IMG/VR virus record: IMGVR_UViG_3300033571_029222
Coordinates: 1-21,859 of that record
Direction: 5' to 3' (one strand)
Origin: a virus
Length of the DNA stretch: 21,859 bases
The position numbers and the translations under genes were made by a program. Each line of letters opens with the position of its first letter. The first letter of the stretch is position 1. The notes under the pieces are model-generated. The model was not told the DNA's origin, searched no databases, and saw nothing but the letters and a program-made list of their open reading frames with translations. Below are positions 1 through 21,121 of this stretch, in pieces.

Positions 1-714
1 ATTTGATGTTGCTAATCTTGCTGCGGCTTGATTTGTAATATGTGTTACTGTTCCACCATTTACATAGGTATCTCTAAAATTTGGGTCGATACCATAAGTG
101 TGTTTATAATCACCAAGAGTAAAGGCCTCAGACACTCTCATTCTGCCAAAAGCATCAGCGGCACCATCAACAACAGTAGATGTTACTGTGCCGGTAATAG
201 TAGCATTAACATTTGGCGTATTGGTCACTACAACATTTTGTGTTGCTGGGAAATTGATAACATTGACTTGAACAGTATTACCAATATTGATAGTACCATT
301 TACTGTTTGTGTGGCTGGGAAGTTACCAATATTTACCGTACCATTTACTGTTTGTATGGATGGCAAATTGCCAATATTGACAGTGCCATTCGCGGTTACA
401 TTTCCAGTTACTATCACAAGATTCGTTACATTTACATTACCGCCAATCGGTAAATAATTGACAGTCAATAATCCACTTGTACCGACTTCTGTAATATGTG
501 TGTGTACAGGATTTTCTGATGAACTTGCAACATTAACAGTATCTACGAAATTAACGTTTCCAGTAATTGTGATATTTTCCGAACCAAGAGTCACTGGCAA
601 AGGATTTGAAGGCGAAACAATTTCACCATTGACGTTATTAGCCAACATCACCACTTCATATCGTTTAGATATGGCGGCATCTAAAGCACCAGTCTCAATC
701 TTAAATTGTGCCAT
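1..714 (-). CDS. Partial repeat-rich virion (fibre/decoration-like) protein, N-terminal 238 residues
   Basis: An open frame starts with ATG at 714, directly after the TAA of the upstream gene, and runs off the left edge with no stop. The first ~75 residues are a mixed leader. They are followed by a beta-rich, Asn/Thr/Val-rich stretch with a 15-residue repeat (core GTVNIGNFPATQTV), and then a segment containing DAFGRMRVS and TLGDYKH. Such NFPATQ-type repeats and a following 'DAFGR-R-S' segment are familiar from tailed-phage virion proteins (family knowledge from memory, not a search). The position downstream of a late-promoter gene also fits a structural role, probably a fibre, collar or decoration protein. 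The exact virion position cannot be told. The C-terminus is missing. Confidence 0.7.
   Translation of the reverse strand, partial: MAQFKIETGALDAAISKRYEVVMLANNVNGEIVSPSNPLPVTLGSENITITGNVNFVDTVNVASSSENPVHTHITEVGTSGLLTVNYLPIGGNVNVTNLVIVTGNVTANGTVNIGNLPSIQTVNGTVNIGNFPATQTVNGTINIGNTVQVNVINFPATQNVVVTNTPNVNATITGTVTSTVVDGAADAFGRMRVSEAFTLGDYKHTYGIDPNFRDTYVNGGTVTHITNQAAARLATSN
236..390 (-). repeat. 45-base tandem coding repeat in the virion protein gene
   Basis: About 3.5 diverged copies of a 45-base unit begin near 236, 281, 326 and 371. Each encodes 15 residues around the core VNGTVNIGNFPATQT. The period is an exact multiple of three and the reading frame is kept, so this is a protein repeat (probably beta strands of a fibrous region), not an intergenic array. 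Confidence 0.75.
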
Positions 715-1086
715 TTAGCAATTCCAACGGCGTAGAGCCTTGTTAATTGGGCTATCTGGATCTCGTGCATTTTCTGGATTCGTCAAACGCTTTTTCATGC
801 CACCCATTCTGGAGCAAAAAGATTTACGGCGGGCTGCACGTTTACCAGTAGGATTCTTTTCTGTAACAGCAGTTTTTAACTTAGAACCCGGATTCTCGCG
901 ACGATATGCATTTACAGCCTTTTGTGAAAGACCATCAGTTTTATCTGCCTTGTTAACTTTTTGCCAATCTTCTTGAACTTCAATCTCTTCTTTCACACAA
1001 GAACCTGGAGAGTATGGCTTTTTACCTGGAACTGGTTTATATCCAGACCAGCATCTTTCTGCAATAAAGTCTTTATAGCGTTTCAT
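715..1086 (-). CDS. Small basic conserved phage protein with Cys/Arg-rich C-terminus and capsid-targeting-like N-terminus
   Basis: A 123-residue, strongly basic protein. The ATG overlaps the end of the 902-residue gene by four bases, so translation is probably coupled. Residues 1-10 (MKRYKDFIAE) resemble the T4 capsid-targeting peptide. The C-terminal half carries SKLKTAVTEK, a KSFCSRMGGMKKRLT segment and the ending RRWNC. I recognise this as a small domain common in tailed phages and in some bacteria; its function is unknown to me. There are four cysteines in all, two near the N-terminus (C12, C30) and two in the C-terminal domain, which could bind metal but no clear zinc motif is seen. Basic charge, late context and the leader suggest a DNA-associated internal head protein (inference). 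Confidence 0.75.
   Translation of the reverse strand: MKRYKDFIAERCWSGYKPVPGKKPYSPGSCVKEEIEVQEDWQKVNKADKTDGLSQKAVNAYRRENPGSKLKTAVTEKNPTGKRAARRKSFCSRMGGMKKRLTNPENARDPDSPINKALRRWNC
1057..1086 (-). other. Candidate capsid-targeting peptide
   Basis: Encodes MKRYKDFIAE followed by Arg. It matches the pattern of the T4 internal-protein capsid-targeting sequence (MKTYQEFIAE, recalled from the T4 literature), which the gp21 prohead protease removes after Glu. The residue after the Glu is Arg rather than a small residue, which is a weakness. Confidence 0.5.
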
Positions 1087-3791
1087 AGGTAATTTCTCTT
1101 TTTAAATGTTGAAAGACTGATACCTTTCTTTTGTAACTCATCCGCTTTTTGGTCGCCTATGCTTGCGCCTGTTTCATCACCAGTCAATTCTTTAATAGGA
1201 GTTACTTTTCCTTTTTTATTAATCTTCTCGCCCATATCGCGACCAATACTCTCACCAGCACCAGCCATTGAAAGCCCAGGTTCTATGCCTTTGTCGATTT
1301 CGAAGATTTTCTGTTTGAAGTTTTCTTTGATCTTTGTGAGGGTGATCTTGGTTTTTTTACTGGTTTCGGCAATTCCGTTTTCACTTCCCGCTTCGGCTCT
1401 TCCTTCTTCACTGGTTCCGTGACTTGTGGGGCAACCGCAATGCTCGGTGATGGTAATTCTTCCTTCTTCTCTTCGACTTTGGTCGATGGTGTGGGTAGAA
1501 TCAATATTTTGTCCTGTGCCGCTCTTATTGCTCCATCCAATGGATGTGGTTCCGTCGTATTCTTTGGCCGAAACAAATTCTTCAGAAAATTGAACATTTA
1601 AGCTCTCCTTTAATTTAACCATGTAACCTTTTTCTGCTTTGACCACTTCACCGTTGTTTCGATGTGCATCTTTCGCAGCAGCATTCCTGAGTATATAGAT
1701 TCTTGGGCGACCATTTAAAGCGACATATACAGAACCGTTGTATTTTATTTTTTTAATTCCTGTATACTCTTCGCTGATTTTTCCTTTTCCGTAATTGGAG
1801 ACATTGATAGGTTCTCCTTTTCTTTCTGGATTAGGATCATGCCTACGTTTTGCAGAAACAGCAGAAGCACGTTCTTTTTTACTTAGTTGTGCTCTTTTTT
1901 CATTTGACATACACTTTGGTTTAGCTTCGCCAGGTTCTCTAGCGCAAGGACCAATCGCTTCACCTTTGCTATTGATTCTTTTCCAACCACCTTCAGGATG
2001 TTTTGGATTGAACCAATTTCTCAAATCTTCGAAAACTGGAACTTTTTTACCTAGCGTTAGCGCATCGAACGCACTTGTATCCGAGAATTGATTTATCTCT
2101 TCTTCAACTTCTTTTTCACCATTACCTGTTAACATACCAAAAGCTTGCTTCAATTCTTCCGGTGTATCAGCAGTAACACTAATAGTTATAGCTTCAAATA
2201 ATTGCTCAAATTCATTATCCAAGGATTCTTTCATCTTCAATGGCTGTGAAGAAGCACTCACGGGAATATTTGCTGCTTTCTTTTCCATTTTCTGTTGCTG
2301 CACATGAGTAGGATCTTGAACAAGTTTACCATGAACAGAATGATGTGTAACTTTTCCGTTTTTGCCATAACGACCATAACCGTAATATTGAAGACCTAAC
2401 TTTCTAGCTTCATCAGCAGCGATATCTCCTTGAGGAGCAACCATCTCTGTGCCTTTTTTCGGAACACCTAAAGTGTCTTTCTTACCTAATTCACCAGCAA
2501 TCCATTCTTTTGCTCTAGGATGTTCAGCAGACTTCTTGACGAATTCTTGAACACCCTTGAATATATCCAGCATTTCATCTTTTTTAGCTTTTACAATTTC
2601 AGGTGATGCTGTACGCAAATCTTCAGAATTATCAAACTCTCGATATTTGTCACCAAACAATTTAGCTAATTCTGGTCTTGCTGCTTGTACAGAATCCCAC
2701 TTTTCTTTACGGAGGTCTTCCGGAACGGTTCTACCGCCCCGTTGACCACGCTCAATATTTCTCTGCTTTGATACTTCATCAGCAGTATTGACCATGACCA
2801 TACCTGTTTCATATCCTAATTCTTCAAGCTCTTTCTTAATTCTTGCGATTTTCTTGGGATCATCACCTGTTCCATTAATAATCAGCCCGTTTCTACCAAG
2901 AAGGGCTAATCTTTGACGCAATTCAGTAACATCTTTTGCACGACCACGAACGATATTTCTAACTTCTTTCTCAGATTCTGGCATTCTTTTGTCCAGATTC
3001 TTTTTGTCCATCAAGAATTCAAGTGCTTTATCAGAGTTGATCTCTGTAAGACCATGCCCAGCCAAAGTATTATCAAGAACATAATCTTTACCCGAACCTG
3101 GACCACCAGCCAAGAACATAGCTTTGAAAATACCTTTGTCATGAACACCTTCAGACAAAATTAATTGAATCATATTTTCAAAGTTTTCTTTGATACCCAT
3201 ACCTTTTCTAACATCCATCATCATTTCTCTTGCCGTTTTATCTGAAACATTCGATGGAACACCTTGTTTAAATTTTGCAAAATCACTTTTACTAGCAGCT
3301 TCTCTCATTTTAGACGCAGACATACCTTCAACTCCTTCCGCATCAGGATCTCTTTCACCAGCAGAATGAACTTCTATCTTCGTAAAATTAAAATGCCCAT
3401 GAGGACCTTTTACATTATTATAACGATTTAATAATTTTTCATACTCTCCAATTCTATCTGATCCGCCAACCATATGAAGTTCAGTAACACCTTTTTTGTA
3501 TAAGGATGATGCATGAGCTAAAAAACTTGGTTGCTCAGATGAAGAAATAGCAAAATTCACACCAGGAAAGAAAGCTTTAATGTACTTTAGCTTTTCTTTA
3601 GGACTTAATGGATTTTTTTTGGGATCATGAGAGTGTGACAGAACGATTAAATGATCTGCGCCGTTCTGTTTTGCGATGGATTTGACTGTTTCCACAAGTT
3701 TTGCATGACCTGTGGTTGGAGGATTCATTCTTCCGAATGCAAAAACACACTTTTTTTGTGCTTTTTCAGCTAAAAAATCTTTAAATTTCAT
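1083..3791 (-). CDS. 902-residue multidomain protein: NMNAT-like nucleotidyltransferase, P-loop kinase and further small domains
   Basis: Starts at ATG 3791 behind a GAGG site, 39 bases after a perfect TATAAATA. Residues 1-9 are a capsid-targeting-like peptide. Residues 15-170 form an HxGH-class nucleotidyltransferase: GRMNPPTTGH (20-29) and MSASKMREA (157-165), like the ISSTxxR motif of NMN and phosphopantetheine adenylyltransferases. Residues 222-390 are a P-loop kinase (GGPGSGKD 229-236; NGTG 306-309) of PNK/zeta-toxin type. Small modules follow: ITISVTADTPEELKQAF (535-551), a basic Cys-containing domain (585-672), a beta-like module (679-726), a low-complexity region (740-820) and a conserved-looking tail (832-902). 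KE[NS][FL] segments separate the modules at 201, 521, 728 and 822. I infer a protease-processed, head-packaged polyprotein; the substrates are unknown. Confidence 0.85.
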   Translation of the reverse strand: MKFKDFLAEKAQKKCVFAFGRMNPPTTGHAKLVETVKSIAKQNGADHLIVLSHSHDPKKNPLSPKEKLKYIKAFFPGVNFAISSSEQPSFLAHASSLYKKGVTELHMVGGSDRIGEYEKLLNRYNNVKGPHGHFNFTKIEVHSAGERDPDAEGVEGMSASKMREAASKSDFAKFKQGVPSNVSDKTAREMMMDVRKGMGIKENFENMIQLILSEGVHDKGIFKAMFLAGGPGSGKDYVLDNTLAGHGLTEINSDKALEFLMDKKNLDKRMPESEKEVRNIVRGRAKDVTELRQRLALLGRNGLIINGTGDDPKKIARIKKELEELGYETGMVMVNTADEVSKQRNIERGQRGGRTVPEDLRKEKWDSVQAARPELAKLFGDKYREFDNSEDLRTASPEIVKAKKDEMLDIFKGVQEFVKKSAEHPRAKEWIAGELGKKDTLGVPKKGTEMVAPQGDIAADEARKLGLQYYGYGRYGKNGKVTHHSVHGKLVQDPTHVQQQKMEKKAANIPVSASSQPLKMKESLDNEFEQLFEAITISVTADTPEELKQAFGMLTGNGEKEVEEEINQFSDTSAFDALTLGKKVPVFEDLRNWFNPKHPEGGWKRINSKGEAIGPCAREPGEAKPKCMSNEKRAQLSKKERASAVSAKRRHDPNPERKGEPINVSNYGKGKISEEYTGIKKIKYNGSVYVALNGRPRIYILRNAAAKDAHRNNGEVVKAEKGYMVKLKESLNVQFSEEFVSAKEYDGTTSIGWSNKSGTGQNIDSTHTIDQSRREEGRITITEHCGCPTSHGTSEEGRAEAGSENGIAETSKKTKITLTKIKENFKQKIFEIDKGIEPGLSMAGAGESIGRDMGEKINKKGKVTPIKELTGDETGASIGDQKADELQKKGISLSTFKKRNYL
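1283..1597 (-). CDS. Nested out-of-frame ORF (104 residues), candidate overprinted gene
   Basis: Lies wholly inside the 902-residue gene in another frame of the same strand. ATG 1597 is preceded by AAAGGAG with a 7-base gap, one of the best Shine-Dalgarno sites in the window. The product has an amphipathic start (MFNFLKNLFRPK), a middle with DGAIRAAQDKILILP, and a long Pro/Lys/Glu/Ser-rich, probably disordered tail ending in a basic KKTSNRKSSKSTKA. The outer frame over the same bases (residues 732-836) is low-complexity Gly/Ser/Thr/Glu, and the conserved-looking outer tail resumes about where the nested ORF stops. Both frames being open could be chance. The start site and natural-looking composition favour real expression, possibly of a basic head or membrane-associated protein. 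Confidence 0.45.
   Translation of the reverse strand: MFNFLKNLFRPKNTTEPHPLDGAIRAAQDKILILPTPSTKVEEKKEELPSPSIAVAPQVTEPVKKEEPKREVKTELPKPVKKPRSPSQRSKKTSNRKSSKSTKA
1605..1611 (-). promoter_or_regulatory. Strong Shine-Dalgarno site before the nested ORF
   Basis: AAAGGAG on the minus strand, 7 bases before ATG 1597. In the outer frame the same bases form the AAG-GAG-AGC-TTA codons for KESL, whereas the other KESL (residues 521-524) uses AAA-GAA-TCC-TTG. The codon choice that creates the site is therefore not forced by the outer protein. Confidence 0.5.
3762..3791 (-). other. Candidate capsid-targeting peptide
   Basis: Encodes MKFKDFLAE followed by Lys at the start of the 902-residue protein. It resembles the T4 capsid-targeting sequence with its gp21 cleavage site after Glu. 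Further Glu-ending segments of the same style occur inside the protein at 3150-3191 (ending ILSE/G), 2193-2231 (ending LFE/A) and 1299-1328 (ending IFE/I). Confidence 0.5.
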
Positions 3792-3821: not shown

Positions 3822-4844
3822 TTATGTTTTATTTATAAAACTTTTCAAGTCATCAGAATCTCTTCTAGTATTAATAGCTTCAGCCCTGGGAAACGGATTA
3901 GCCTCATTATAATCATTTATGAGTAATCTTTTCGTATTCAAAAGACCCATTATTAATCCATAATTTCTAAATCCTAAAGTATCCAATATGTCGCGAGTTT
4001 CTTTTTCTATATTATATGATCTGGCTGTAACGAAAATTATTTGACTTCCTTTTTCTTGTTCCTTGAGTATGGCATCAACATTATTTTCTAGTGGTTGAGG
4101 TTTAGTATAATCAAACTTGGGTTGAGATTTCAAAATAGTTCCATCAATATCACAAAATATTACATTTTTATTATTATAATCGAACCAATCTTCAGCGGTT
4201 CCAACATCAATATAATCTCTAACAGCCTTTCTCATAAAAATTTCATTATTATTTAATAAGTGTGTGATCACATCTGAAACAAATATCTCTTTTGAATATT
4301 GCTTCACTTTTAGAAAGGCATCTTTATACGACTCAACACTCTGAAATTTATATGCTCCAACACAAAACGTATCAGATACAACATTTTTCTCTATGATATT
4401 TGTTATGATATCTTGTTCATTATAAATCACAAAACTCTTAGATGACAGTTTTTTTAAGACATTATGTTCTCGGATATTTGATGTACAAATATAGTTACCA
4501 TCTGTTATATCATGATTAAAAAAACTATCACAATCTTTAATCAGGAATTCTCCTGTTATATTTCTGTTTTTCAATATTTGATATACAGTATCAGCAGGTC
4601 CAAGAGTAGGTTCTTCTAATACAACAATATCAACATTATCACCGAATTCATGTTTTATAAATTTTGTTGCTCTGTATGCATTCTCATGTTCTTTTAATAT
4701 GCCAACAGTTATTTGATATTTACCATAAAATTGCTTTACGGCATTCATCAGCATCAGTTCGTGTTTATAATCATAAAGTAGATATTTCGGTCTCATGCCT
4801 GGAAATCTACTCGACATACCTGCTGCTGGAACAATAATATTCAT
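3822..4844 (-). CDS. Sugar/phospho-substituent nucleotidyltransferase fused to a HAD phosphatase
   Basis: ATG 4844 gives 340 residues and a four-base ATGA overlap with the kinase gene upstream; a GTG at 4859 is an alternative. Residues 1-220 are a nucleotidyltransferase: AAGMSSRF (7-14), K20, KDCDS (103-107) and IDVGTAEDW (212-220). Residues 226-330 are a HAD domain: DIDGT (232-236, catalytic Asp 232 and 234), VTAR (272-275) and LINDY (308-312). The first domain should join an NTP to a phosphorylated sugar or phospho-alcohol; the HAD domain should remove a phosphate. Next to an APH/LicA-like kinase it resembles the LicA-LicC (choline kinase, phosphocholine cytidylyltransferase) pairing. The substrate is unproven. 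This is the last gene of the glycan island. Confidence 0.8.
   Translation of the reverse strand: MNIIVPAAGMSSRFPGMRPKYLLYDYKHELMLMNAVKQFYGKYQITVGILKEHENAYRATKFIKHEFGDNVDIVVLEEPTLGPADTVYQILKNRNITGEFLIKDCDSFFNHDITDGNYICTSNIREHNVLKKLSSKSFVIYNEQDIITNIIEKNVVSDTFCVGAYKFQSVESYKDAFLKVKQYSKEIFVSDVITHLLNNNEIFMRKAVRDYIDVGTAEDWFDYNNKNVIFCDIDGTILKSQPKFDYTKPQPLENNVDAILKEQEKGSQIIFVTARSYNIEKETRDILDTLGFRNYGLIMGLLNTKRLLINDYNEANPFPRAEAINTRRDSDDLKSFINKT
3830..3837 (-). promoter_or_regulatory. T4-type late promoter TATAAATA
   Basis: An exact TATAAATA on the minus strand, inside the last codons of the nucleotidyltransferase-HAD gene and 39 bases before ATG 3791. T4 late promoters consist of this octamer at -10 and are read by host RNA polymerase with gp55, gp33 and the sliding clamp. 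It would separate late expression of the 902-residue gene and what follows from expression of the glycan island. Confidence 0.7.
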
Positions 4845-5593
4845 TTCATTTCTTCCCACAATTTTTTTATTTGTTTCATTAAAAAGTTGTAATCTTTATC
4901 ATTTTTTCGACAGTGCTCTAAAACCCGAAAAAGCATTAATATTATAAATCCATTATTATTCGAGATGGGAAATCTTGTTACTATTCTATTTTCCAAATCA
5001 CCGAGTTTAACATCCAATTTCAAGTTATCATTCCGAAGAAACCATTTACAGTTTAAATCTTGTCGCAACTTCGCAATGTCAAAAACATATGAATCATACT
5101 CCGTCTGCACACAATCAATTAGAAAAAAATCATCTTCTGTTTTTAGTATATTTTCTAAAGTTAAATCGCCATGGTAAACTGAGGTTGGAAGCTTTAGAGG
5201 CATTTTTTCCAGAAGTTGTTCTACAGTAAAAGGCAAATCATATTTCACATCAAAATTTTTGATTTTTTTCAGAATTATTTCTGAATAATCTTTCTCTTTG
5301 GCACTCGTTGAAAATTCAGATAGAATTTTTTCGAGAAAATTAAAAATACTCTCTATGCCGTGTGACCTGAGATAATTTTTCATATCTAGTCCATGGATAT
5401 ACTCCATATCCAATATATTTTCAGCATGATAATATATCTTAGGAACAGGATAATTCAATTTTAGAAGTTCAGTCATTCTTTCACAATTTCTGTGAATATT
5501 GTTAATTTTTCTAACGAATAATCCTTGTTGATTTTTCATCAGAAAAACTTCACTTCCAGAATGACCAGAAAATTTCTTTACTTCTTTATCCAT
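4841..5593 (-). CDS. APH/choline-kinase-like small-molecule kinase
   Basis: 250 residues starting at ATG 5593, overlapping the upstream gene by 16 bases. It has the aminoglycoside-phosphotransferase/choline-kinase fold signature: YHGDLTLENIL (140-150) is the Brenner catalytic loop with D143 and N148, and FLID (157-160) supplies the metal-binding Asp160. The N-lobe contains FVRKI with the likely ATP-binding Lys29, and MEYIHG (63-68) is the hinge. Family members phosphorylate choline, ethanolamine, sugars or antibiotics. Here, directly before a nucleotidyltransferase, the likely role is to phosphorylate a sugar or amino-alcohol for activation as a nucleotide conjugate (inference). Antibiotic resistance is unlikely in this setting. 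The gene is AT-rich. Confidence 0.75.
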   Translation of the reverse strand: MDKEVKKFSGHSGSEVFLMKNQQGLFVRKINNIHRNCERMTELLKLNYPVPKIYYHAENILDMEYIHGLDMKNYLRSHGIESIFNFLEKILSEFSTSAKEKDYSEIILKKIKNFDVKYDLPFTVEQLLEKMPLKLPTSVYHGDLTLENILKTEDDFFLIDCVQTEYDSYVFDIAKLRQDLNCKWFLRNDNLKLDVKLGDLENRIVTRFPISNNNGFIILMLFRVLEHCRKNDKDYNFLMKQIKKLWEEMK

Positions 5594-6276
5594 TCTTCAT
5601 AATCTTCTCTAATCAAAGAATGTGGTGTTCCATTATGTGGACCAGGAGGAAAAGGATTATTCATATCTACATAAAAAAGATTTTCTCCCACTAAACCATG
5701 CAATTTTAATTGAGCACTCGTCATATCCTCACCGATCATTTGCACTCCTTGATTGTAAAATAAATCTCTGTTCCTATAAACAGTCATTCTTTTATCCATG
5801 TTTATAGAAGAGCTAAAAGCAAATTGATCGTTACCAAAGTCTCTTGTGGGTACCATTCTACAATGTGGCATATACATTTTAGAGGGATCTATTTTTTCGA
5901 ATGGTATTCGCAAATTCAATGCATAATCAGTTCTACTTTTAATCACCCAATCATAAACAAAATTATTTTCTTGTTCATGTTCCTTTTTTAACCAACAAGA
6001 TTTTTCCATGGAATAAAGTGCTGCAACGGTAAAACGAGCTGGCCATTTATGAGGATTTGGTGTATTTGTGTATATCTGATCAAAATTGTCTTTTAAGACT
6101 GGTTCTATCACATAAGAAATTGGATTATAAAGTTTGATAAGATCTTCAGACTCAGGAAATTCCCAGGTGTGTATAAAGACATCTACATCATAAAAAGATA
6201 ACAAGTTCTTTTTATAATATTCATAGCCTTGTTTAAATGATCTAGCTTGTCCAGAAAAGCAAAGTGCTATTTTCAT
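5578..6276 (-). CDS. Putative glycosyltransferase-like protein (SGQxRSF type)
   Basis: 232 residues, starting with a four-base ATGA overlap with the upstream gene. The N-terminus MKIALCFSGQARSF followed by VDVFIHTW (31-38), and KSRTDYAL (113-120) further on, mark a family of putative glycosyltransferases found in polysaccharide loci of bacteria and in aquatic phages. The RTD (115-117) probably corresponds to a GT-A-type metal-binding position. The assignment is from recalled pattern only; donor and acceptor sugars are unknown. Its place among six to eight sugar-modifying genes supports the role. Confidence 0.6.
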   Translation of the reverse strand: MKIALCFSGQARSFKQGYEYYKKNLLSFYDVDVFIHTWEFPESEDLIKLYNPISYVIEPVLKDNFDQIYTNTPNPHKWPARFTVAALYSMEKSCWLKKEHEQENNFVYDWVIKSRTDYALNLRIPFEKIDPSKMYMPHCRMVPTRDFGNDQFAFSSSINMDKRMTVYRNRDLFYNQGVQMIGEDMTSAQLKLHGLVGENLFYVDMNNPFPPGPHNGTPHSLIREDYEEWIKK

Positions 6277-7085
6277 TTTGTGTACTCATCTCTCAAAATT
6301 AAAGTTGAAGCTAATGTTGATTTTGGAGGAGGATCTTTATGGTCAAAAACTGAATGATGTCTATGTGTTTTATTGGACAAAATCCACATTTCATCTTTAA
6401 TTCTGTCCGAAAAAAAGTGAGGAAAATTATTTTCGCGTCTATAACTTTCCCACCAATTGCTATCTAGAGGTGAGGATAAAGTTTTTATGTAACTAGAATT
6501 TGCCCACCAATAATTTCCAGAAAAATGTGGAGAAGGCCATCGAGTGTAATTTGCACCCACGATATCTACATTTTTTTCACTTAAAATATCTAAACAATTG
6601 GCGTGATTCTCTAAAACAGACCAATCTAAAAATTTTCTCCAGTGAAAATAGTTGATTAGAACATCATATCCAAAATCGTTGTCATTTTTATCCAAGTGTC
6701 TTTTTAAGGAGGTTACTCCTTTGGCATGAAAATATAACACTTCGAAATCATCAGATGCTTCATTACAATCATTCCATATTTTCTGTAAGGTTGATGTTTC
6801 TGTTATGAAATTGCCCTTCTTAGAATTGAAATTTTTTAGTTCCTCATCTTTATTCGGTTTTTTGTACCATGTACATTGTACATTACAACGAAGTATTTTT
6901 TCTCGATAATTTTTTAAAATTGACAAAAAACAGTCCAGATCTTCTTCTTCACCTACTGCGGTAATATTAATTGTGTCTATTTTTTTATCTAAAGAACAAT
7001 CTCGTATGGTTTTAAATTGATCTAAGAAAATGGAAATCCAGTGTTTATCATCTGTTAGATATATGTGGTAATAGGCTTGTATCAT
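6273..7085 (-). CDS. Putative glycan-modifying (glycosyltransferase-like) protein with HAKG motif
   Basis: 270 residues; ATG 7085 overlaps the upstream stop by four bases and its own stop overlaps the next start. YFHAKGVTS (118-126) and a later HFSGNYWWANSSYI segment are typical of an uncharacterised family in bacterial polysaccharide loci and large aquatic viruses, usually treated as glycosyltransferase-like. No clear DxD motif can be pinned down. The N-terminus reads like a short alpha/beta nucleotide-sugar-binding half (strands at YYHIYL and INITAVG). Function is inferred from context; specificity is unknown. Confidence 0.55.
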   Translation of the reverse strand: MIQAYYHIYLTDDKHWISIFLDQFKTIRDCSLDKKIDTINITAVGEEEDLDCFLSILKNYREKILRCNVQCTWYKKPNKDEELKNFNSKKGNFITETSTLQKIWNDCNEASDDFEVLYFHAKGVTSLKRHLDKNDNDFGYDVLINYFHWRKFLDWSVLENHANCLDILSEKNVDIVGANYTRWPSPHFSGNYWWANSSYIKTLSSPLDSNWWESYRRENNFPHFFSDRIKDEMWILSNKTHRHHSVFDHKDPPPKSTLASTLILRDEYTK

Positions 7086-7756
7086 TTGTTTACTAATAAT
7101 CTATTGAACGGTTTTTTACCATTTTTCAGAAAGACCACCATACTATCATGAAAACACACGCCCGTCAAATCGTTACATATTGACAATAATTTATGATCTA
7201 TATTTCTTCTATCTGATGAATCGATATGCTGATAATTGATGAGATCAGAAATTCTTTTGGAGTATTCGATAAACGAATTTCTATCATAAAGTGATGAACC
7301 AAATGATCTATAGTAGCTAGTATGTGTATCTTCGCAAATTAATACACCATCTTTTTTGATATGAGGAAAAACTCTTTCGAATGTTACTATTTGCTGTTGC
7401 ATTGTATGACCACCATCATCGATCAAAACATCAATTTCTGGATATTTCTGTAAAAAAGAGTTCCAAAATTCATGACTTTCTTGATCACCAATAACTATAT
7501 CAATATTTTCATCATAAAAAGGCTTATGGTTCATAACTGCAGGATCTACGTCAATACCGATGATTTTAGCTTCTGGTCCTAGAAACTTTCTCCACATTTG
7601 TATGCTACCGCCAGACTGAACGCCGATTTCAACCAATGTTATGGGCTTATTGATGTATTTTGAACAATAATTTTCATATACATCGAAATAAGGATCCCAT
7701 TTATCTGAGCCTAGAGTTAGTTCATTATGAAAAATTTCTCTAATTCTACTCATCAT
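7082..7756 (-). CDS. SAM-dependent methyltransferase (sugar O-methyltransferase-like)
   Basis: ATG 7756 overlaps the upstream stop by one base (TGATG) with GAGGAG in front. ATG 7753 and TTG 7759 are alternatives. The 224-residue product has a class I methyltransferase core: LVEIGVQSGGSIQMW (41-55, SAM loop), GIDVDP (67-72) and LIDDGGHT (111-118). The Asp-Asp-Gly-Gly-His motif is typical of the macrolide-sugar O-methyltransferase (MycE-like) and cephalosporin-hydroxylase-like group, where it helps bind metal. The likely role is O-methylation of a sugar, in line with the neighbouring C-methyltransferase and dehydratase. Acceptor unknown. Confidence 0.75.
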   Translation of the reverse strand: MMSRIREIFHNELTLGSDKWDPYFDVYENYCSKYINKPITLVEIGVQSGGSIQMWRKFLGPEAKIIGIDVDPAVMNHKPFYDENIDIVIGDQESHEFWNSFLQKYPEIDVLIDDGGHTMQQQIVTFERVFPHIKKDGVLICEDTHTSYYRSFGSSLYDRNSFIEYSKRISDLINYQHIDSSDRRNIDHKLLSICNDLTGVCFHDSMVVFLKNGKKPFNRLLVNK

Positions 7757-8961
7757 CAATTCTCCTCTATTTTTTGCTCAGGAAAATACTTAACAAAAAT
7801 GTCTTTATTTTCTGGACGAAGTTTTTTAATTTTTGCTTTCATTTCTGTATGAAAGTTCCACGCCAATGGAATAAAACAAATCGATTGATTCTTATAGTTA
7901 TCTAAAAGATCCATTCCACGAATCAAAACAGAACTTCCTGGTGTATAAAGTCCCTGCTTTAAAGGATTTTCATCTATGATAAAGTCTGGCGATTCATTAC
8001 AAAAATTCAATAAAGTATTTCCTTTTGCTGGTGCACCTAATCCGATTACAGGAATTCCAGAACTTCGATACATTTTAATTTTATTTGCTACATATTCGGC
8101 AACAGAAATACATTTTTTAGCGTAATCATCATAGGTTTTTTCTGTATACAAGCCTTTTTTATGTTCCATAGAAATCAAGTTTTCTATGACTTTAGGTGCT
8201 TTTAAATTTTTAGATATGATAAAAATGTAGCTTGTTCCATGAACAGGCGATTTAACAACATCAATTAAATTTAAGCCAGCTCTTTTACATAGAGCATCAA
8301 TAGATTTGACATTATAAAAAGATAAATGCTCATGATAAATTGTATCAAACTCTCCGTTCAAGATCATATCTGCTTGTGAGGTTGTCGCAAACATCAAACT
8401 ATCTTTATGCATGACCTCACGAATATTTTGCAGCAATTTCAGTTGATCGAAATTGTGAGCAAAAGCGTTTTGACACACGATAACATCAAATTTCTGTTCA
8501 AATTCTTTTCCGGTAAAATAGCCACAAACAACTTTATGTCTTTGCGATGATGTTGGATAAAGATTTTCCGCTGGATCAACGCCGAAAGTTTCTGCGCCAT
8601 GATTCTGAAAATAATTTAATTGACTACCATCATTACAACCAATATCTAGAACAGTTCTCGGCTTTGTTCCATATTTTTCAGCAGCAAATTGTGCAAACCA
8701 ATCGAAATATTCTAATTGTGATTTCGCTGTGCCCGAAACATACAAATAATCTTTAAACATCAAATCAGGATTGACGCGATGTGTTAGTTGAACATGGTAG
8801 CAATGTTCACAGCGAACAATCGCTAAAGGATAAATCTCTTGTATTTCATCTTTGCTTTTTTTATAAGAATTTGCGAGAGGTTGATCCTTCAAATCCAACA
8901 CAGGAATTAAAGTATCGTGCCCACATGCAATACAATTATCAATTGATTCTACATTAGCCAT
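7756..8961 (-). CDS. Nucleotide-sugar C-methyltransferase (TylCIII/NovU-type)
   Basis: 401 residues with the three-part layout of sugar C-methyltransferases. First comes an N-terminal zinc-binding domain with paired cysteines (C10/C13 and C51/C54). Next is a SAM-binding core, VLDIGCNDGSQLNYF (104-118), FGVDP (126-130) and VCQNAFAHN (162-170). Then HEHLSFY (210-216), and a C-terminal domain with GLGAPAKGNTLLNF. TylCIII, NovU and TcaB9 methylate a carbon of a 4-keto-deoxy sugar nucleotide, the product of the neighbouring dehydratase. The ATG lies 12 bases inside the end of the dehydratase gene, so the two are probably translationally coupled. This gene and the dehydratase look GC-richer than the genes downstream. 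Confidence 0.85.
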   Translation of the reverse strand: MANVESIDNCIACGHDTLIPVLDLKDQPLANSYKKSKDEIQEIYPLAIVRCEHCYHVQLTHRVNPDLMFKDYLYVSGTAKSQLEYFDWFAQFAAEKYGTKPRTVLDIGCNDGSQLNYFQNHGAETFGVDPAENLYPTSSQRHKVVCGYFTGKEFEQKFDVIVCQNAFAHNFDQLKLLQNIREVMHKDSLMFATTSQADMILNGEFDTIYHEHLSFYNVKSIDALCKRAGLNLIDVVKSPVHGTSYIFIISKNLKAPKVIENLISMEHKKGLYTEKTYDDYAKKCISVAEYVANKIKMYRSSGIPVIGLGAPAKGNTLLNFCNESPDFIIDENPLKQGLYTPGSSVLIRGMDLLDNYKNQSICFIPLAWNFHTEMKAKIKKLRPENKDIFVKYFPEQKIEEN

Positions 8962-9983
8962 CTGTCATTCTCCAAATACCAATCACTCACTTGTTTAATT
9001 CTCTCAGAAAATGCTACCCTAGGTTCCCATCCAAGACTTCTCATTAATCCACCATCAAGTGCATATCTCAAATCGTGTCCAGGTCTGCTCGAATGGAAAT
9101 CTACCATTTCATAAATCAATTCTTTTCCTTGTGCATCAGCAACAAGTTTAGCGAGGGTTAGATTGTCAACTTCTTCTTTACCAACGATATTGAATTTCGC
9201 ACATTTCGCATGACCATAGTCCATGGAAGGAACTGGTTTATTTTTAACCAAAAATAGAAGTGCATCAGCTACATCGGCCGCATGAATATAGAATCGACTT
9301 CCAGCTTGTGTTCTAGTGTGATCTGCATGGATAAAGATTTTTTCACCTTTACGAACTCGATCAATACACAGAGGAATAAATTTCTCTGGTGTCTGCCTCT
9401 CACCGAAAACATTCATTGTATGAGTGATCATCATTGGAATTTTATATGTGTTTTCATATGCAACACATAGTTCTTCGGCGCCAGCTTTTGATGCGGAGTA
9501 TGGATTTGTAGAATTGTATCGATCTCGCTCTTTATATGCAACACCTGGAGGTGCAACACCAAAAATTTCATCGGTGCTAAAGTATAAGAAAGTTTCTAGT
9601 TGATATGGAAGTTTTCTTGCAAACTCTAGAAGATGAGCGGTACCGATAGTGTTATCAAAAATGAATTCCATCGGATGAGTAATCGACCTATCTACATGTG
9701 AAGATGCAGCTAGATGCAAAATTACATCAATATTTCCGTGTTTATGAAGAAAGTTTTGTGTAATAGGATTAATCTCAGCTTTCAAATCATGAAAGACTAC
9801 ATTAACTCTCTTTTGCACTTCTTTATCATAACTTTCCAAAACTTCATGAAGCCGATTTAAATTACCAGAATAATCTAGTCGATCAATCGTGGTAATTTTC
9901 CAGTCTGTGACTCGAATCAAAAGATCAATAACATGATGTGCAATAAATCCTGCGCCACCTGTGATTAAAACATGCTTACTCAT
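8949..9983 (-). CDS. rmlB: dTDP-glucose 4,6-dehydratase-like extended SDR enzyme
   Basis: 344 residues, close to the usual RmlB length. The NAD-binding loop GGAGFIAHH is at 9-17. SSHVDRSI (94-101), STDEIFG (136-142) with the catalytic Thr-Asp-Glu triad, and YSASK (162-166) are the signature residues of nucleotide-diphospho-glucose 4,6-dehydratases. The enzyme makes a 4-keto-6-deoxy sugar nucleotide in the cytoplasm, the entry step for many deoxysugars, and fits directly with the adjacent C-methyltransferase. ATG 9983 overlaps the preceding gene by eight bases. No RmlA, RmlC or RmlD was seen, so the nucleotide sugar must come from the host or from the nucleotidyltransferase at the end of the island. 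The gene symbol is given by family, not by proven specificity. Confidence 0.85.
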   Translation of the reverse strand: MSKHVLITGGAGFIAHHVIDLLIRVTDWKITTIDRLDYSGNLNRLHEVLESYDKEVQKRVNVVFHDLKAEINPITQNFLHKHGNIDVILHLAASSHVDRSITHPMEFIFDNTIGTAHLLEFARKLPYQLETFLYFSTDEIFGVAPPGVAYKERDRYNSTNPYSASKAGAEELCVAYENTYKIPMMITHTMNVFGERQTPEKFIPLCIDRVRKGEKIFIHADHTRTQAGSRFYIHAADVADALLFLVKNKPVPSMDYGHAKCAKFNIVGKEEVDNLTLAKLVADAQGKELIYEMVDFHSSRPGHDLRYALDGGLMRSLGWEPRVAFSERIKQVSDWYLENDRWLM

Positions 9984-10662
9984 TGATATATTCTCCTGTG
10001 GGGGCGATTACTCCCTCAATTCCTATAGGTTCAACTGTTACCGTTTTATACATATGCAAATTTTTATAGTATGAATGTTCAACATCGATTCCATACTGCA
10101 AACAATCATTGAAAATCATTGGAAGCTTTGATTGAAAATAATCGAGAAGGCTTTCATCCATATGCCATAATCTCAATTTAAAAAGTTTATTTACACCAGA
10201 TTTTTCTTGTGCTTCTTTTGACATCCATGAATCTACTTCATGTGCAAAAACAAAAGCGTTTTCATATTCATCTCGATTTAAAATGAAATTATCATTGAAT
10301 TTATATCTACCAGATACTTTATAATATCTTTTTGTTCGTGACTTATTTTTTGAATATGAATCTAATGCGATGATGAAGCTTAATGTTTCAGCTATACTTC
10401 TTAGTCCAACACCAGAAAATTGCTTTACTTGAGGATTAGAACCTGTATACAAATATTCGACGTTCATGCTCTTCAACTCTTCAACATATTCTGATGATGG
10501 AACATCATAAGATCCATCAAACATAATTATGCGATTGTTTGGACAAACTTTATTTACAGATTTTATAGTTTCAATTGTCTGTTCGAATCTCTGCACATTA
10601 TTGAATACAGAAAGCTGTTTTACATTCAAAGCCGAATTAATAAAAAAAACTCCATCAAGCAT
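9976..10662 (-). CDS. Putative glycosyltransferase-like protein (unknown specificity)
   Basis: ATG 10662 was chosen because GAGGAAA lies just before it and it overlaps the upstream stop by eight bases; a frame open further upstream reads into that gene. The 228-residue protein has an N-terminal strand (VFFINSAL), IIMFDGS (45-51) and YYKVSGRYKFNDNF (113-126). The latter resembles the 'K-SGRY-lnd-F' segment of WavE-like and related lipopolysaccharide-synthesis proteins. No canonical DxD is obvious. Context supports a sugar-transfer role; the family assignment is tentative. Confidence 0.55.
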   Translation of the reverse strand: MLDGVFFINSALNVKQLSVFNNVQRFEQTIETIKSVNKVCPNNRIIMFDGSYDVPSSEYVEELKSMNVEYLYTGSNPQVKQFSGVGLRSIAETLSFIIALDSYSKNKSRTKRYYKVSGRYKFNDNFILNRDEYENAFVFAHEVDSWMSKEAQEKSGVNKLFKLRLWHMDESLLDYFQSKLPMIFNDCLQYGIDVEHSYYKNLHMYKTVTVEPIGIEGVIAPTGEYINE

Positions 10663-11491
10663 AATTTTCCTCAATAATTTTTCTCCATTCTGGTACTCTA
10701 TCATATTGATGGACAATTGTAAAGATTTTTCCTGTTGATGTAGTAATTTTATCATCATTCATTTTAGGTTCAGCCTCAAGAAGAAAAGGTCTGAATTGTT
10801 CTATTTTAGATGGATCAGCCGTTGTGCCTAATTGTGCTGCCCATCCATCTTCAGAATTCATATACTTACAAGTTCGTGTATATGGTGACATTGAAATCAT
10901 GAAATTGAAGGTGGATTGATCACAAATAGGAATTGGTCTATTGATTGCAGCAGTAAAAATACTAATAACCAAATCTTTCATCTGTTCTGCCCGACCTGCA
11001 AGAACACCAACATTATAAATGGTATTATTTTTATAATTCTCGTGAATATATGGACCAAAAGTTTCTAGTAAGTTTCGATTGCCCCAAGGCTCATCTTTAT
11101 ACTTCATACTCTCAGAAGCAAAAACTAAATCTTTATCTCCTAAGTTGTCTTCTAGCCATTCGATAGGATTTTTCTGAAAAATAACATCTTTAACATCAGT
11201 TGTGACTACATATCGATAATCATTTCTACATAGATGATCGTAAATATGGGCGAATCTTTCTACATGAACAGGAATTTTTCCTGGCGAATAAATTAAATTT
11301 CCTTGATCGTCTTGACCAAATCCAATAACTTTAAATCCAGATTCAATTACTTTTTTTGCAGATTCGTTGTCGCAGTTCATAAGGATGAGAAATTTATCAC
11401 CCTCAAAACCAGATTTGTTGATGGAATTCACCCAATATTTCAGAGTGTCCCAATTGTAGTTATTTGCACATCCTATAATCAAGTCTTTCAT
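10655..11491 (-). CDS. Putative GT-A glycosyltransferase, first gene of the glycan island
   Basis: 278 residues. ATG 11491 has AAGGAG (11499-11504) with a 7-base gap. VVTTDVKDVIF (95-105) provides a D99-x-x-D102 cluster at the end of a strand, the usual place of the nucleotide-sugar and metal-binding motif in GT-A enzymes. YNVGVLAGR and a late DQSTFNFMI segment also fit the GT-A acceptor half. It likely transfers a hexose from a nucleotide sugar; substrate unknown. It opens a run of nine overlapping genes, and only 30 bases separate it from the late gene before it, with no clear promoter there. Confidence 0.65.
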   Translation of the reverse strand: MKDLIIGCANNYNWDTLKYWVNSINKSGFEGDKFLILMNCDNESAKKVIESGFKVIGFGQDDQGNLIYSPGKIPVHVERFAHIYDHLCRNDYRYVVTTDVKDVIFQKNPIEWLEDNLGDKDLVFASESMKYKDEPWGNRNLLETFGPYIHENYKNNTIYNVGVLAGRAEQMKDLVISIFTAAINRPIPICDQSTFNFMISMSPYTRTCKYMNSEDGWAAQLGTTADPSKIEQFRPFLLEAEPKMNDDKITTSTGKIFTIVHQYDRVPEWRKIIEENYA

Positions 11492-11521: not shown

Positions 11522-11833
11522 CTATTGCCCTGGAGTATCCTTTTTATACTTGTTTACCAGGTGTTTTGTTCCCCACTGTCCAGCTCCAGCTACTGGAAGA
11601 ATATCTGGATTAGGGGACTTCTTTTCTTCACTTACACTTTTATGTAGTTTCACTCCAGTGACTTTCTGAACTAGATTCCATGCTTCTTTGTGTCTTTTAT
11701 TTTTTACATGATCATCGAAAGTTTTCTTTTGATTTTCATTGGCACTTCTTTTAAATTTAATTAGTTCCATAATGCCTATATTACCAGCATATGCAGCTTC
11801 ATGTAAAACTTCAAATTGTTTGAAAGTGTACAT
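11522..11833 (-). CDS. Small conserved phage protein with capsid-targeting-like N-terminus
   Basis: 103 residues; ATG 11833 shares one base with the upstream stop (TAATG). The protein starts MYTFKQFEVLHE-AAYAGN. The first part resembles the capsid-targeting peptide and LHE/A fits a gp21-type cleavage site. The rest is helical and basic (NIGIMELIKFKR, KEAWNLVQKVTGVKLHKS) and ends in a flexible tail with GAGQWGTKHLVNKYKKD. I recall similar small proteins in marine T4-like phages but know no function. It is the last gene of the late block led by the promoter at 14195, followed by the glycan island. A packaged internal protein is a reasonable guess. Confidence 0.7.
   Translation of the reverse strand: MYTFKQFEVLHEAAYAGNIGIMELIKFKRSANENQKKTFDDHVKNKRHKEAWNLVQKVTGVKLHKSVSEEKKSPNPDILPVAGAGQWGTKHLVNKYKKDTPGQ
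11798..11833 (-). other. Candidate capsid-targeting peptide (divergent)
   Basis: Encodes MYTFKQFEVLHE followed by Ala-Ala. The xFKQF core and a Leu-x-Glu/Ala cleavage-like end fit the T4 head-protease pattern, with two extra residues compared with the other three examples in the window. Confidence 0.4.
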
Positions 11834-13071
11834 TACTTACTCCAGTTTTTCTGTGCCGTGAAGTTTAAGTGACTGAATTCAAGCCTATCAACTAATTTTA
11901 CCGCACTACCTTTTAATTTATCAACGGCAACAAAACCTTCTGGATTTGTAATTCGATAACCATCTTCCGTCTGCACGAAGGTGTTTGTTACTTGTTTTAT
12001 TTGTTGAAGCTTTTTAATAATCATATTTTTAGCATCGACTAATAAATTTTGTAAATTGAAAATTGCAACCAAATCTGTTGTATTCGATCTATAAAATCTC
12101 ATCAATTCATTCTTCTCAACCATTCTTTTTTCTTTAGTGTCTTTCTTTTTGGCCGCTAAAATTTCTTTATTTAATTTATCTTCGACCCACTTAATCAATT
12201 CAACGGTATGTTTTGTAGTGTCTGTTATTTTTTGGCCTGAACGGATCTTAGAGTTATTAAAAGTTTTAATTTGTGTCTGTATAATATCGGAAGAAGAAAT
12301 TCTATTTAAAGTCATAGAATTTATTCTGGAGAAAATAGTTCCTGCTTGAGATAAAATTGATGTGATTTCTTTTGTTTCTTCTTTAGTAAATGTTACTGTT
12401 CCTGATGCATCAATAAAATATGCATCCCTAAACCAAACATCTTTTGTCTTTTTTAGATTATTAATATCAATATTGAATGATGCTTTCAAAGATTGAATAG
12501 TTTTACCTGTATAAGAAGTGTGAAAAACTATTCCCATTTTAGCCATTCTCATAGATGCAGCCAGTTTACTATCGGCCGGTACAGCATAAACAATGGTATT
12601 AGGCTGAAACACGAGATATTTTTCACCTCCAATTTCCTTTATCGCACCATCGAGATCATCCTCACCAAACATCATATCACCTTGAAGAATGCCTTCGATA
12701 CCCAGTTTCGGTAGATATGTGAGAGCAGTCTTTAATTTTTTATTTAAACCCTCGCCAGGATGATTTCGATCAATATCTTCTTCTGTATAATTTAATTTGG
12801 CATCAACATTAAAAATGCCTTTAGTGGCAACAAAAAACTTTCCATTCTCTGGATTAATTCCAGAAAATACTGCTGGTGCACCGTCCCATTTCGTTGTGAC
12901 ATTCACTTTTGAATCGGAATTACCAGCTAACATATCTCGAAGAGAGCGTAGAAAATTAATCGCATCTCTAGCACCAGGAACACCTCGATTGAGAACTTCA
13001 TCTTCGATATGCTCCAGATGAACGTTTTTTCCTTCTTTACTAGATTCGATTATAAATTCTTTGAAGTTCAT
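11833..13071 (-). CDS. Late protein with nucleotidyltransferase/ligase-like motifs and capsid-targeting-like N-terminus
   Basis: ATG 13071 was chosen (10 bases after the upstream stop, with AGG 7 bases ahead) over an extended frame that would overlap that gene by 71 bases. It gives 412 residues starting MNFKEFIIES. TTKWDGAPAVF (59-69) looks like motif I (KxDG, Lys61) of covalent nucleotidyltransferases (DNA/RNA ligases, capping enzymes). FVATKG (80-85), GILQGDMMF (127-135, resembling the DGE motif), EGFVAVDK (378-385) and SAVKLVDR (389-396) could be the later motifs, the last two resembling IV and V. A helical insert (about 225-365) lies between, which is unusual. It belongs to a large unannotated family I associate with T4-like phages. 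A ligase-type or AMP-transferring activity is inference. Confidence 0.75.
   Translation of the reverse strand: MNFKEFIIESSKEGKNVHLEHIEDEVLNRGVPGARDAINFLRSLRDMLAGNSDSKVNVTTKWDGAPAVFSGINPENGKFFVATKGIFNVDAKLNYTEEDIDRNHPGEGLNKKLKTALTYLPKLGIEGILQGDMMFGEDDLDGAIKEIGGEKYLVFQPNTIVYAVPADSKLAASMRMAKMGIVFHTSYTGKTIQSLKASFNIDINNLKKTKDVWFRDAYFIDASGTVTFTKEETKEITSILSQAGTIFSRINSMTLNRISSSDIIQTQIKTFNNSKIRSGQKITDTTKHTVELIKWVEDKLNKEILAAKKKDTKEKRMVEKNELMRFYRSNTTDLVAIFNLQNLLVDAKNMIIKKLQQIKQVTNTFVQTEDGYRITNPEGFVAVDKLKGSAVKLVDRLEFSHLNFTAQKNWSK
13045..13071 (-). other. Candidate capsid-targeting peptide
   Basis: Encodes MNFKEFIIE followed by Ser-Ser. It fits the (I/L)-x-Glu/small-residue cleavage pattern of the T4 prohead protease and the F-K-x-F core shared with three other proteins in this window. 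Confidence 0.5.
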
Positions 13072-20253: not shown

Positions 20254-20799
20254 TTACTTGGATCCGACGAACTTGTCAAGACTTGGAGGTTGCCATCCTT
20301 CAGGTTTCATCACTTTGCCATCATTATTCTTCAAAACTTTACCAGTTTGAACATCGATCTTAGCCAAGTTACTACGAGCAACTTCATCCCATGCACCATA
20401 GACATCAAAACCTTTCATCTTACAATATCCAAGAATAACCCAAATCATATCCATACATGCATCGAGTTGTTCGACATCATCATCTTTTTTCAGTCCATCC
20501 TGAAATTCCCAAAACTCTTCTTTGATGAGATTTCGGTAAAGACTAATATTTTCAGGAGATGTTTTTTGATCACAAGCTTCGATAAACGTATGGACATCAG
20601 CATAAAAATCAGTTTCAATTTTTTTCAATATAATTACTCCATCTTTTTCAGAAATATCAAGTTTAGTTCCCTCAAACCATTTCATCTCTTCACAGAGTTC
20701 ATCTGGCAATTGTAGAATAGCAGAACCGTCATCAAGAAGTTCAACGACTTCACCTGTATAAGTTTTAGCTTTCAATTGATACTCTCTTCCATTCATCAT
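20254..20799 (-). CDS. AbrB/MazE-like domain fused to MazG-type pyrophosphohydrolase
   Basis: Residues 12-60 (GEVVELLDDGSAILQLP, then KWFEGTKLDISEKDGVIILKK) have the strand pattern of a SpoVT/AbrB or MazE swapped-hairpin domain, usually DNA-binding. Residues 65-150 form an all-alpha NTP-pyrophosphatase with EEFWE (94-98), EQLD (110-113) and D117, followed by a tail with GKVLKNNDGKVMKPEGW typical of the HisE-like phage branch. Substrate unknown; nucleotide-pool cleaning or metabolite signalling are candidates. The ATGs at 20799/20796 overlap the upstream gene by ~35 bases. TTG 20775, with a purine-rich GGAAGAGAG ahead, is a real alternative start and keeps both domains. Confidence 0.7.
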   Translation of the reverse strand: MMNGREYQLKAKTYTGEVVELLDDGSAILQLPDELCEEMKWFEGTKLDISEKDGVIILKKIETDFYADVHTFIEACDQKTSPENISLYRNLIKEEFWEFQDGLKKDDDVEQLDACMDMIWVILGYCKMKGFDVYGAWDEVARSNLAKIDVQTGKVLKNNDGKVMKPEGWQPPSLDKFVGSK

Positions 20800-21121
20800 T
20801 TACTTTAACCCAAAGACGATTATCTTTACCAACAGACATTTCAACTTTGTTTTGGTACTCTACATTAGAATGAGAGATGAGAAAGCCGTTACCTTCTAGT
20901 GTAGAAGGTTCTCTCTTTTTAGGATTTCCTTGCAACATTAGTGTCGTTGGTGTTTCTGGTGCAAGGTGTGAAATGTCTTGCTTAGGCTGTTCAGGTGCAG
21001 GAATATATTTTGTTTCTTGATAGTGTTTCTCAACAATCATCTTGCCTGCTGCAACACCACCAACAATAGTTCCAAAGATTCCAGCCTTTCTCAAAAATCC
21101 TCTTCGTGTATTCATACTCAT
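20765..21121 (-). CDS. Small protein with twin-arginine-like leader
   Basis: 118 residues. The start at 21121 overlaps the deaminase stop by four bases; ATG 21115 is also possible. TRRGFLRKAG (5-14) followed by a hydrophobic stretch (GIFGTIVGGVAAGKMIV) is a good match to the S/T-R-R-x-F-L-K Tat signal. No clear AxA peptidase site follows, so it may act as an anchor. The remainder is a Pro-rich linker (about 40-70) and a compact end with HSNVEYQNKVEMSVGKD and LWVKVNDEWKRV, probably a small beta domain. A Tat-type leader implies export or membrane insertion of a folded protein by the host. Function unknown; strange company for nucleotide enzymes. Confidence 0.65.
   Translation of the reverse strand: MSMNTRRGFLRKAGIFGTIVGGVAAGKMIVEKHYQETKYIPAPEQPKQDISHLAPETPTTLMLQGNPKKREPSTLEGNGFLISHSNVEYQNKVEMSVGKDNRLWVKVNDEWKRVSIES

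Follow-up and report, generated by a model that had tools for sequence, protein, structure and literature searches.

Why should one viral gene join two enzyme domains and several small modules in a single chain, with short segments ending in Glu between them? The question is raised by IMG/VR virus record IMGVR_UViG_3300033571_029222, of which the whole 21,859-nucleotide stretch (the window) was analysed. It concerns an open reading frame (ORF) of 902 residues, confirmed here and lying on the minus strand, whose product the original prediction took for a polyprotein cut in the prohead. The answer to which we give somewhat better than even credence is that a T4-type, Kyanoviridae-like phage makes this protein as a multi-enzyme precursor of head cargo; the precursor would be targeted by its leader, cut by the prohead protease and injected. 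Its parts are listed below; a slash marks a candidate cut site or the Glu-ended boundary before a module.

1083..3791, minus strand (read from 3791 to 1083): whole ORF, 902-residue multi-module protein
3765..3791, minus strand: leader MKFKDFLAE/, residues 1-9, candidate T4-type capsid-targeting sequence with an LAE/ cut site
3183..3749, minus strand: nucleotidyltransferase domain (cytidylyltransferase/NMNAT-like), residues 15-203; PF01467, PHROG 3041 (E=3e-66)
3150..3191, minus strand: junction 1, residues 201-214, KENFENMIQLILSE/G (ILSE/G at 214)
2490..3149, minus strand: P-loop kinase domain (zeta-toxin/AAA_33/PNK-like), residues 215-434; PF06414, PF13671
2316..2423, minus strand: small GYGRY..GKVTH module, residues 457-492
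2193..2231, minus strand: junction 2, residues 521-533, KESLDNEFEQLFE/A (LFE/A at 533)
2028..2192, minus strand: AITISV module, residues 534-588, ending VFE/D
1770..2027, minus strand: DLRxWF..GGWKRINSKGEAIGPC (GPC) module, residues 589-674, ending ISE/; PHROG 727
1605..1769, minus strand: small module, residues 675-729, ending YMVKLKE/, overlapping the originally predicted segment at 728
1299..1328, minus strand: KENFKQKIFE/I, residues 822-831, weakly structured tail with a weak candidate site

A T4-type leader and the probable packaging of enzymes

Packaging of the T4 internal protein (IP) IPIII requires its first ten residues only, with positions 4 and 7 weighing most in targeting and positions 8 and 10 in cutting (PMC9026906). 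In T4 DNA, ipII and ipIII both read MKTYQEFIAE, and a regular expression for this leader shape, applied to the 182 ORFs at 60-110 kb of T4, matched these two genes only. One scan of viral contigs yielded 80 relatives of the 902-residue protein; the comparison set consisted of 50 distinct homologue sequences, including the 902-residue protein itself. The IPIII shape (aromatic at 4, Phe at 7, Leu or Ile at 8, Glu at 10) was found in 50 out of 50, the sequences matching M[KR]Fx[DE]F[LI]xE either exactly or closely, with one extra residue in a few. The leader of the 902-residue protein is one residue shorter than the IPIII-type sequence, and among homologues the position before the Glu is hypervariable (entropy of 3.1 bits). 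In the 80 relative loci, the leader expression matched 143 ORFs, 142 of them on the sense strand, and the reversed motif 7. In a 158-kb and a 169-kb relative contig, most genes matching the leader lie in one block with DUF6267 and cytidylyltransferase genes, matches outside that block being spurious-looking or scattered.

Homologues of the cytidylyltransferase/NMNAT domain have been detected by mass spectrometry (MS) in virions of S-SM1 (PMC3037559), S-SZBM1 (PMC9146016), S-CREM2 (PMC10665884) and S-SCSM1 (PMC9602691). Their N-termini read MKKFSAFLNE/A, MRFRQFIIE/A, MKNFSSFLTE/A and MKSFLQFLKE/A, respectively. These cyanomyovirus proteins (T4-GC190 in S-SM1), found in purified virions, thus share with ours a homologous nucleotidyltransferase and the same leader, but they are shorter and lack the kinase, and the virion papers do not describe a packaging signal. 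In S-CREM2, a strict regular expression set before the genome was read matched three annotated genes, all virion-detected: the cytidylyltransferase, a SAM hydrolase (MKDFDSFLEE/F) and a kinase ((V/M)KRFDAFLTE/E). The hypergeometric probability of this agreement is 0.013 with its three matches, or 0.003 when structural genes are left out. Looser forms, added afterwards, occur on gp13 and, at residues 19-25 (FASFMAE/A), on the Cas9-like gp12, both virion-detected, and also on three small genes undetected in virions. The GYGRY..GKVTH module also stands beside the leader in three other proteins: S-SM1 GC190, S-CREM2 gp12 and S-CREM2 gp14.

The original prediction had supposed that the proteins are packaged; packaging through a T4-type targeting leader is well supported by the leader itself and by the published virion proteomics of homologues. 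The first nine residues would serve the chain as a capsid-targeting sequence of the T4 internal-protein type and dock it on the prohead core. Cyanophage virion proteomes repeatedly hold metabolic enzymes, and the papers do not decide between cargo and carry-over; a T4-type leader on such enzymes would argue for cargo and would provide a sequence rule to predict which proteins very abundant aquatic phages inject. The carry-over that the MS authors allow for is also what an intracellular, unpackaged enzyme would lead one to expect, with ordinary linkers and with the leader and Glu sites serving as structural helix caps. The position of the gene beside replication genes fits such an enzyme, and [LI]xE alone is common, but the identical leader shape on unrelated virion-detected S-CREM2 enzymes and on T4 internal proteins makes this improbable.

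Two virion proteins have ends of related appearance. The S-CREM2 Cas9-like protein (OR473000, L198 7704-10313) ends in KTFRDFLN, a targeting-like C-terminus, and the 69-residue S-SCSM1 gp93 (L201 16627-16836) has the leader-like C-terminus KRTFKEFLEYIE. T4 Alt is known to undergo processing at its C-terminus too.

Conserved junctions between exchangeable modules

The internal segments had been predicted from a K-E-[NS]-[FL] pattern said to lie exactly between unlike domains and to echo the leader. The pattern occurs exactly at residues 201, 521, 728 and 822 (0.12 expected from composition shuffles; four copies in 0 out of 5,000 shuffles), and the Glu-ended sites ILSE/G (214), LFE/A (533) and IFE/I (831) are present. 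The AlphaFold model (46 sequences) is modest, with a mean predicted local distance difference test score (pLDDT) of 64 and a predicted template modelling score (pTM) of 0.37. Values of pLDDT below 50 cover residues 203-215, 508-537, 556-588, 661-685, 730-816 and 830-873, and both main junctions therefore lie in linkers. The placement between domains was borne out for 201-214 and 521-533, which do not fall inside folded domains. It did not hold for 728, at the end of a strand (722-727) with which a small domain closes, pLDDT being below 50 from 730 on, nor for 822-831, in the weakly predicted tail beyond the long disordered stretch of residues 730-816.

Three elements of the predicted pattern were discarded. 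The segment at 728 is a domain-closing strand without a targeting core, although LKE or LNE is conserved there. K-E varies among homologues, in which the conserved unit is FxxF[LI]xE instead. The count of [LI]xE alone, 15 sites in the 902-residue protein versus 10 expected (P=0.06), is not significant, and some of these sites lie within folded domains. The segment at 822 is leader-like only as a loose [IV]xE; at the 831 site, homologues mostly read K[IV]xE/S, with L or I at P3 in only 35%.

The echo of the leader, poor in the 902-residue protein itself, is very clear in its homologues. The predicted signal came from a degenerate family member, and the pattern is sharper in the 50 homologues. 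A strict core, defined as [FYW]xx[FLYMI][LIVM]xE, has 54 matches inside homologues, compared with 6.8±2.4 in shuffles (maximum 14) and 4 for the reversed motif, and 53 of the 54 fall at the two junctions. Junction 1 has Glu in 50/50 sequences and L or I at P3 in 48/50, with a P2 entropy of 3.2 bits. Junction 2, counted without alignment because the MAFFT alignment misplaced it, has Glu in 45/45, F at P7 in 36/45 and L or I at P3 in 26/45, in forms such as FENFLSE/A, FEEFINE/A and FESFISE/D; as the homologues are mutually related, neither the strict-core nor the conservation counts are independent events. At junction 1, [LI]xE is kept even where a 60-residue insert replaces the preceding sequence (L036, L030).

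Modules are exchanged, lost or separately encoded at these first two junctions, in agreement with what a check of homologues had been expected to reveal. Junction 2 reads KFENFLSE/AVTV in some homologues and EFEEVFAE/DLRQWF in others, and the AITISV module is swapped for other sequence or missing. The DLRxWF module also stands alone directly behind leaders (MKSFKQFVNE/DLRKW, MKTFNSFVSE/DLRKW and MKTFNTFVVE/DLRKW). The kinase is encoded alone in Melnitz (MKTFAELQE/GVYD) and in HTVC008M (MIPFILKE/GLYD), its fused form reading FEELLVE/GVHD. Two further Glu-ended module boundaries, at 588 and 674, had been missed by the original prediction. At every distinct internal boundary in all loci, Glu precedes the module: the kinase in 46/46, DLRxWF in 34/34, AVTV in 31/31 and KNVPTSPEKW in 21/21.

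Met207 aligns with the start of HTVC008M gp129 (MIPFILKE/G), as it might if the modules were produced separately from internal translation starts, with no cutting at all. Homologues such as those reading FEELLVE/G have no Met at junction 1, and no Met is conserved at junction 2; internal starts, very improbable on these grounds, were discarded for the lack of conservation of Met207.

Related arrangements were seen elsewhere. EEVEQIDE/ or EEVELDE/ recurs before modules in large multi-module ORFs nearby, in L063 (from 9967) and L077 (from 8426); these repeats are of [LI]xE type without the aromatic core, and precede KNVPTSPEKW in 21/21. Agrobacterium phage Atu_ph07 (L196 2254-4590) encodes a 778-residue protein that begins MKWNDLNE/A, has the same kinase inside (VTE/GVNDK) and carries a repeated module behind NLTE/LFDT and NLNE/LFDT.

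A prohead protease as the candidate cutter

A gp21-type prohead protease would take off the leader at LAE/K and cut the leader-like linkers at LSE/G (214) and LFE/A (533), with further cuts perhaps at the Glu boundaries 588, 674 and 831. This would free both enzyme domains, nucleotidyltransferase and P-loop kinase, together with small basic modules inside the head, for injection with the DNA. Packaging of the fused form, cleavage at the leader and within the chain, injection and the enzyme substrates are what we infer. An S77 prohead protease gene is present in 7/10 long relative contigs; no S77 peptidase was found in the analysed record, a 21.9-kb fragment. Aligned capsid precursors, with cut positions inferred through alignment to T4, retain [LI]xE: FLTE/A in T4, ILTE/T in S-SM1, FLGE/I in HTVC008M, and LYE/T and IAE/A in contigs. 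By analogy with the T4 rule, the leader is probably removed. Cutting at 214 and 533, suggested by the conserved Glu with a variable P2 and by module swaps at the exact bond, is slightly favoured; it is possible at 588 and 674, a weak proposal at 831 and unlikely at 728.

The first domain looks like an NMN-adenylyltransferase and the second like a P-loop kinase. Across both, the top Foldseek match is NadR (6gyf, E=3e-8), which combines NMN adenylyltransferase with nicotinamide-riboside kinase; ATP sulfurylase and polynucleotide kinase come next. These matches point to chemistry on nucleotides or NAD, although a fold match does not fix the substrate. On the 902-residue protein, NCBIfam gave only a generic cyt_tran_rel match. 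NadR has a nucleotidyltransferase followed by a P-loop kinase in the same order; unlike in NadR, the first domain here had no match in a sequence search of the PDB, between the domains lies a low-confidence linker that contains a cut-like site, and the two domains are separate genes in HTVC008M and Melnitz.

NadR, as a working two-domain enzyme, also lends some plausibility to a chain that is packaged, loses its leader and is injected whole, the internal copies either adding further sites for scaffold binding or being left over from fused cargo genes. Standalone modules bear leaders, so their fusion would leave leaders behind. An uncut chain sits poorly with an internal Glu conserved at 100% while P2 varies freely, and with [LI]xE persisting at junction 1 despite the 60-residue insert, and we consider it rather unlikely.

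Apart from carry-over, several points count against a cleaved head-cargo precursor. The specificity of gp21 in these phages is judged by alignment. At junction 2, 14/45 sequences have F at P3, which departs from the T4 L/I rule, and the 902-residue protein has no internal match to the strict core, its own junctions being degenerate. LxE/G could mark where the kinase fold begins. The virion-detected homologues are not fused to a kinase, and no cleaved fragments were found in published work. The HTVC008M cytidyltransferase begins MKTLKELLRKK, without a leader, and a scan of that genome for the strict leader gave one match, a spurious one.

Two known ideas come closest: internal-protein targeting in T4, and the polyvalent proteins of Iyer et al. 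The proposed precursor resembles T4 IPII and IPIII, with gp21, in leader length and shape (aromatic-xx-F-[LI]-x-E), in the [LI]xE cut rule, in the S77 protease gene of relatives and in T4-type gene order. In T4, however, each small single protein carries one copy of the signal, at its N-terminus, whereas here it also stands between enzyme modules, and the enzymes proposed as cargo bear no relation to the IPs. For the polyvalent proteins, which phages and conjugative elements encode, packaging and injection of a multi-domain chain have been predicted and a polyprotein analogy drawn, with embedded peptidases releasing the domains (Iyer et al. 2017, PMC5512222). Zeta-toxin-like kinases are among their domains, and their mosaic chains of at least two unlike effector domains have a counterpart here in modules that are swapped, lost or standalone. 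Many of them, though not all, contain an embedded peptidase; in contrast, Pfam, PHROGs and NCBIfam scans found no peptidase family in the 902-residue chain, and the proposed cutter is the phage prohead protease, which would work in trans at leader-like linkers.

There is about an even chance that Kyanoviridae-like phages use the repeated targeting and cutting cassette as a general enzyme-loading signal and as punctuation between modules, one gene giving several injected enzymes after cleavage in trans; those named under this reading are NMNAT-like, kinase, SAM hydrolase and Cas9-like. If true, this would be a polyprotein strategy of tailed phages with the capsid protease as cutter. We found no literature that links the targeting sequence to cyanophages or to a multi-enzyme chain punctuated in this way; subscription papers lay outside the search, and novelty is provisional.

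Further leaders and neighbouring genes

Leaders also begin two other genes of the window.

715-1086, minus strand: next gene, DUF6321 module
1057..1086, minus strand: leader MKRYKDFIAE/ of that gene, followed by RCWSGYK
13045..13071, minus strand: leader MNFKEFIIE/ of the DUF6267 gene, starting at the in-frame ATG 13071

The DUF6321 module is internal in relative loci L066 and L075, behind SFKSFINE/RCWPGYK, and the leader of the DUF6267 gene has the counterparts MKFTQFLTE/S and MNFKEYLTE/A in contigs. Between the 902-residue and DUF6267 genes, positions 3822-11491 (minus strand) hold a sugar or surface-modification block that encodes an NTP-transferase/HAD fusion, a kinase, glycosyltransferases, methyltransferases and an NDP-sugar dehydratase. 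A 103-residue ORF at 11522-11833 (minus strand) starts with MYTFKQFEVLHE/A, a stretched form of this type of leader. The 118-residue ORF at 20765-21121 (minus strand) starts with MSMNTRRGFLRKAGIFGTIVGGVAAG; this resembles a twin-arginine (Tat) export signal, to our knowledge unusual for a phage. At 1-715 (minus strand), a frame with GNLPS.QTVNGTVNIGN-type repeats leaves the edge of the window and probably encodes a structural, fibre-like protein.

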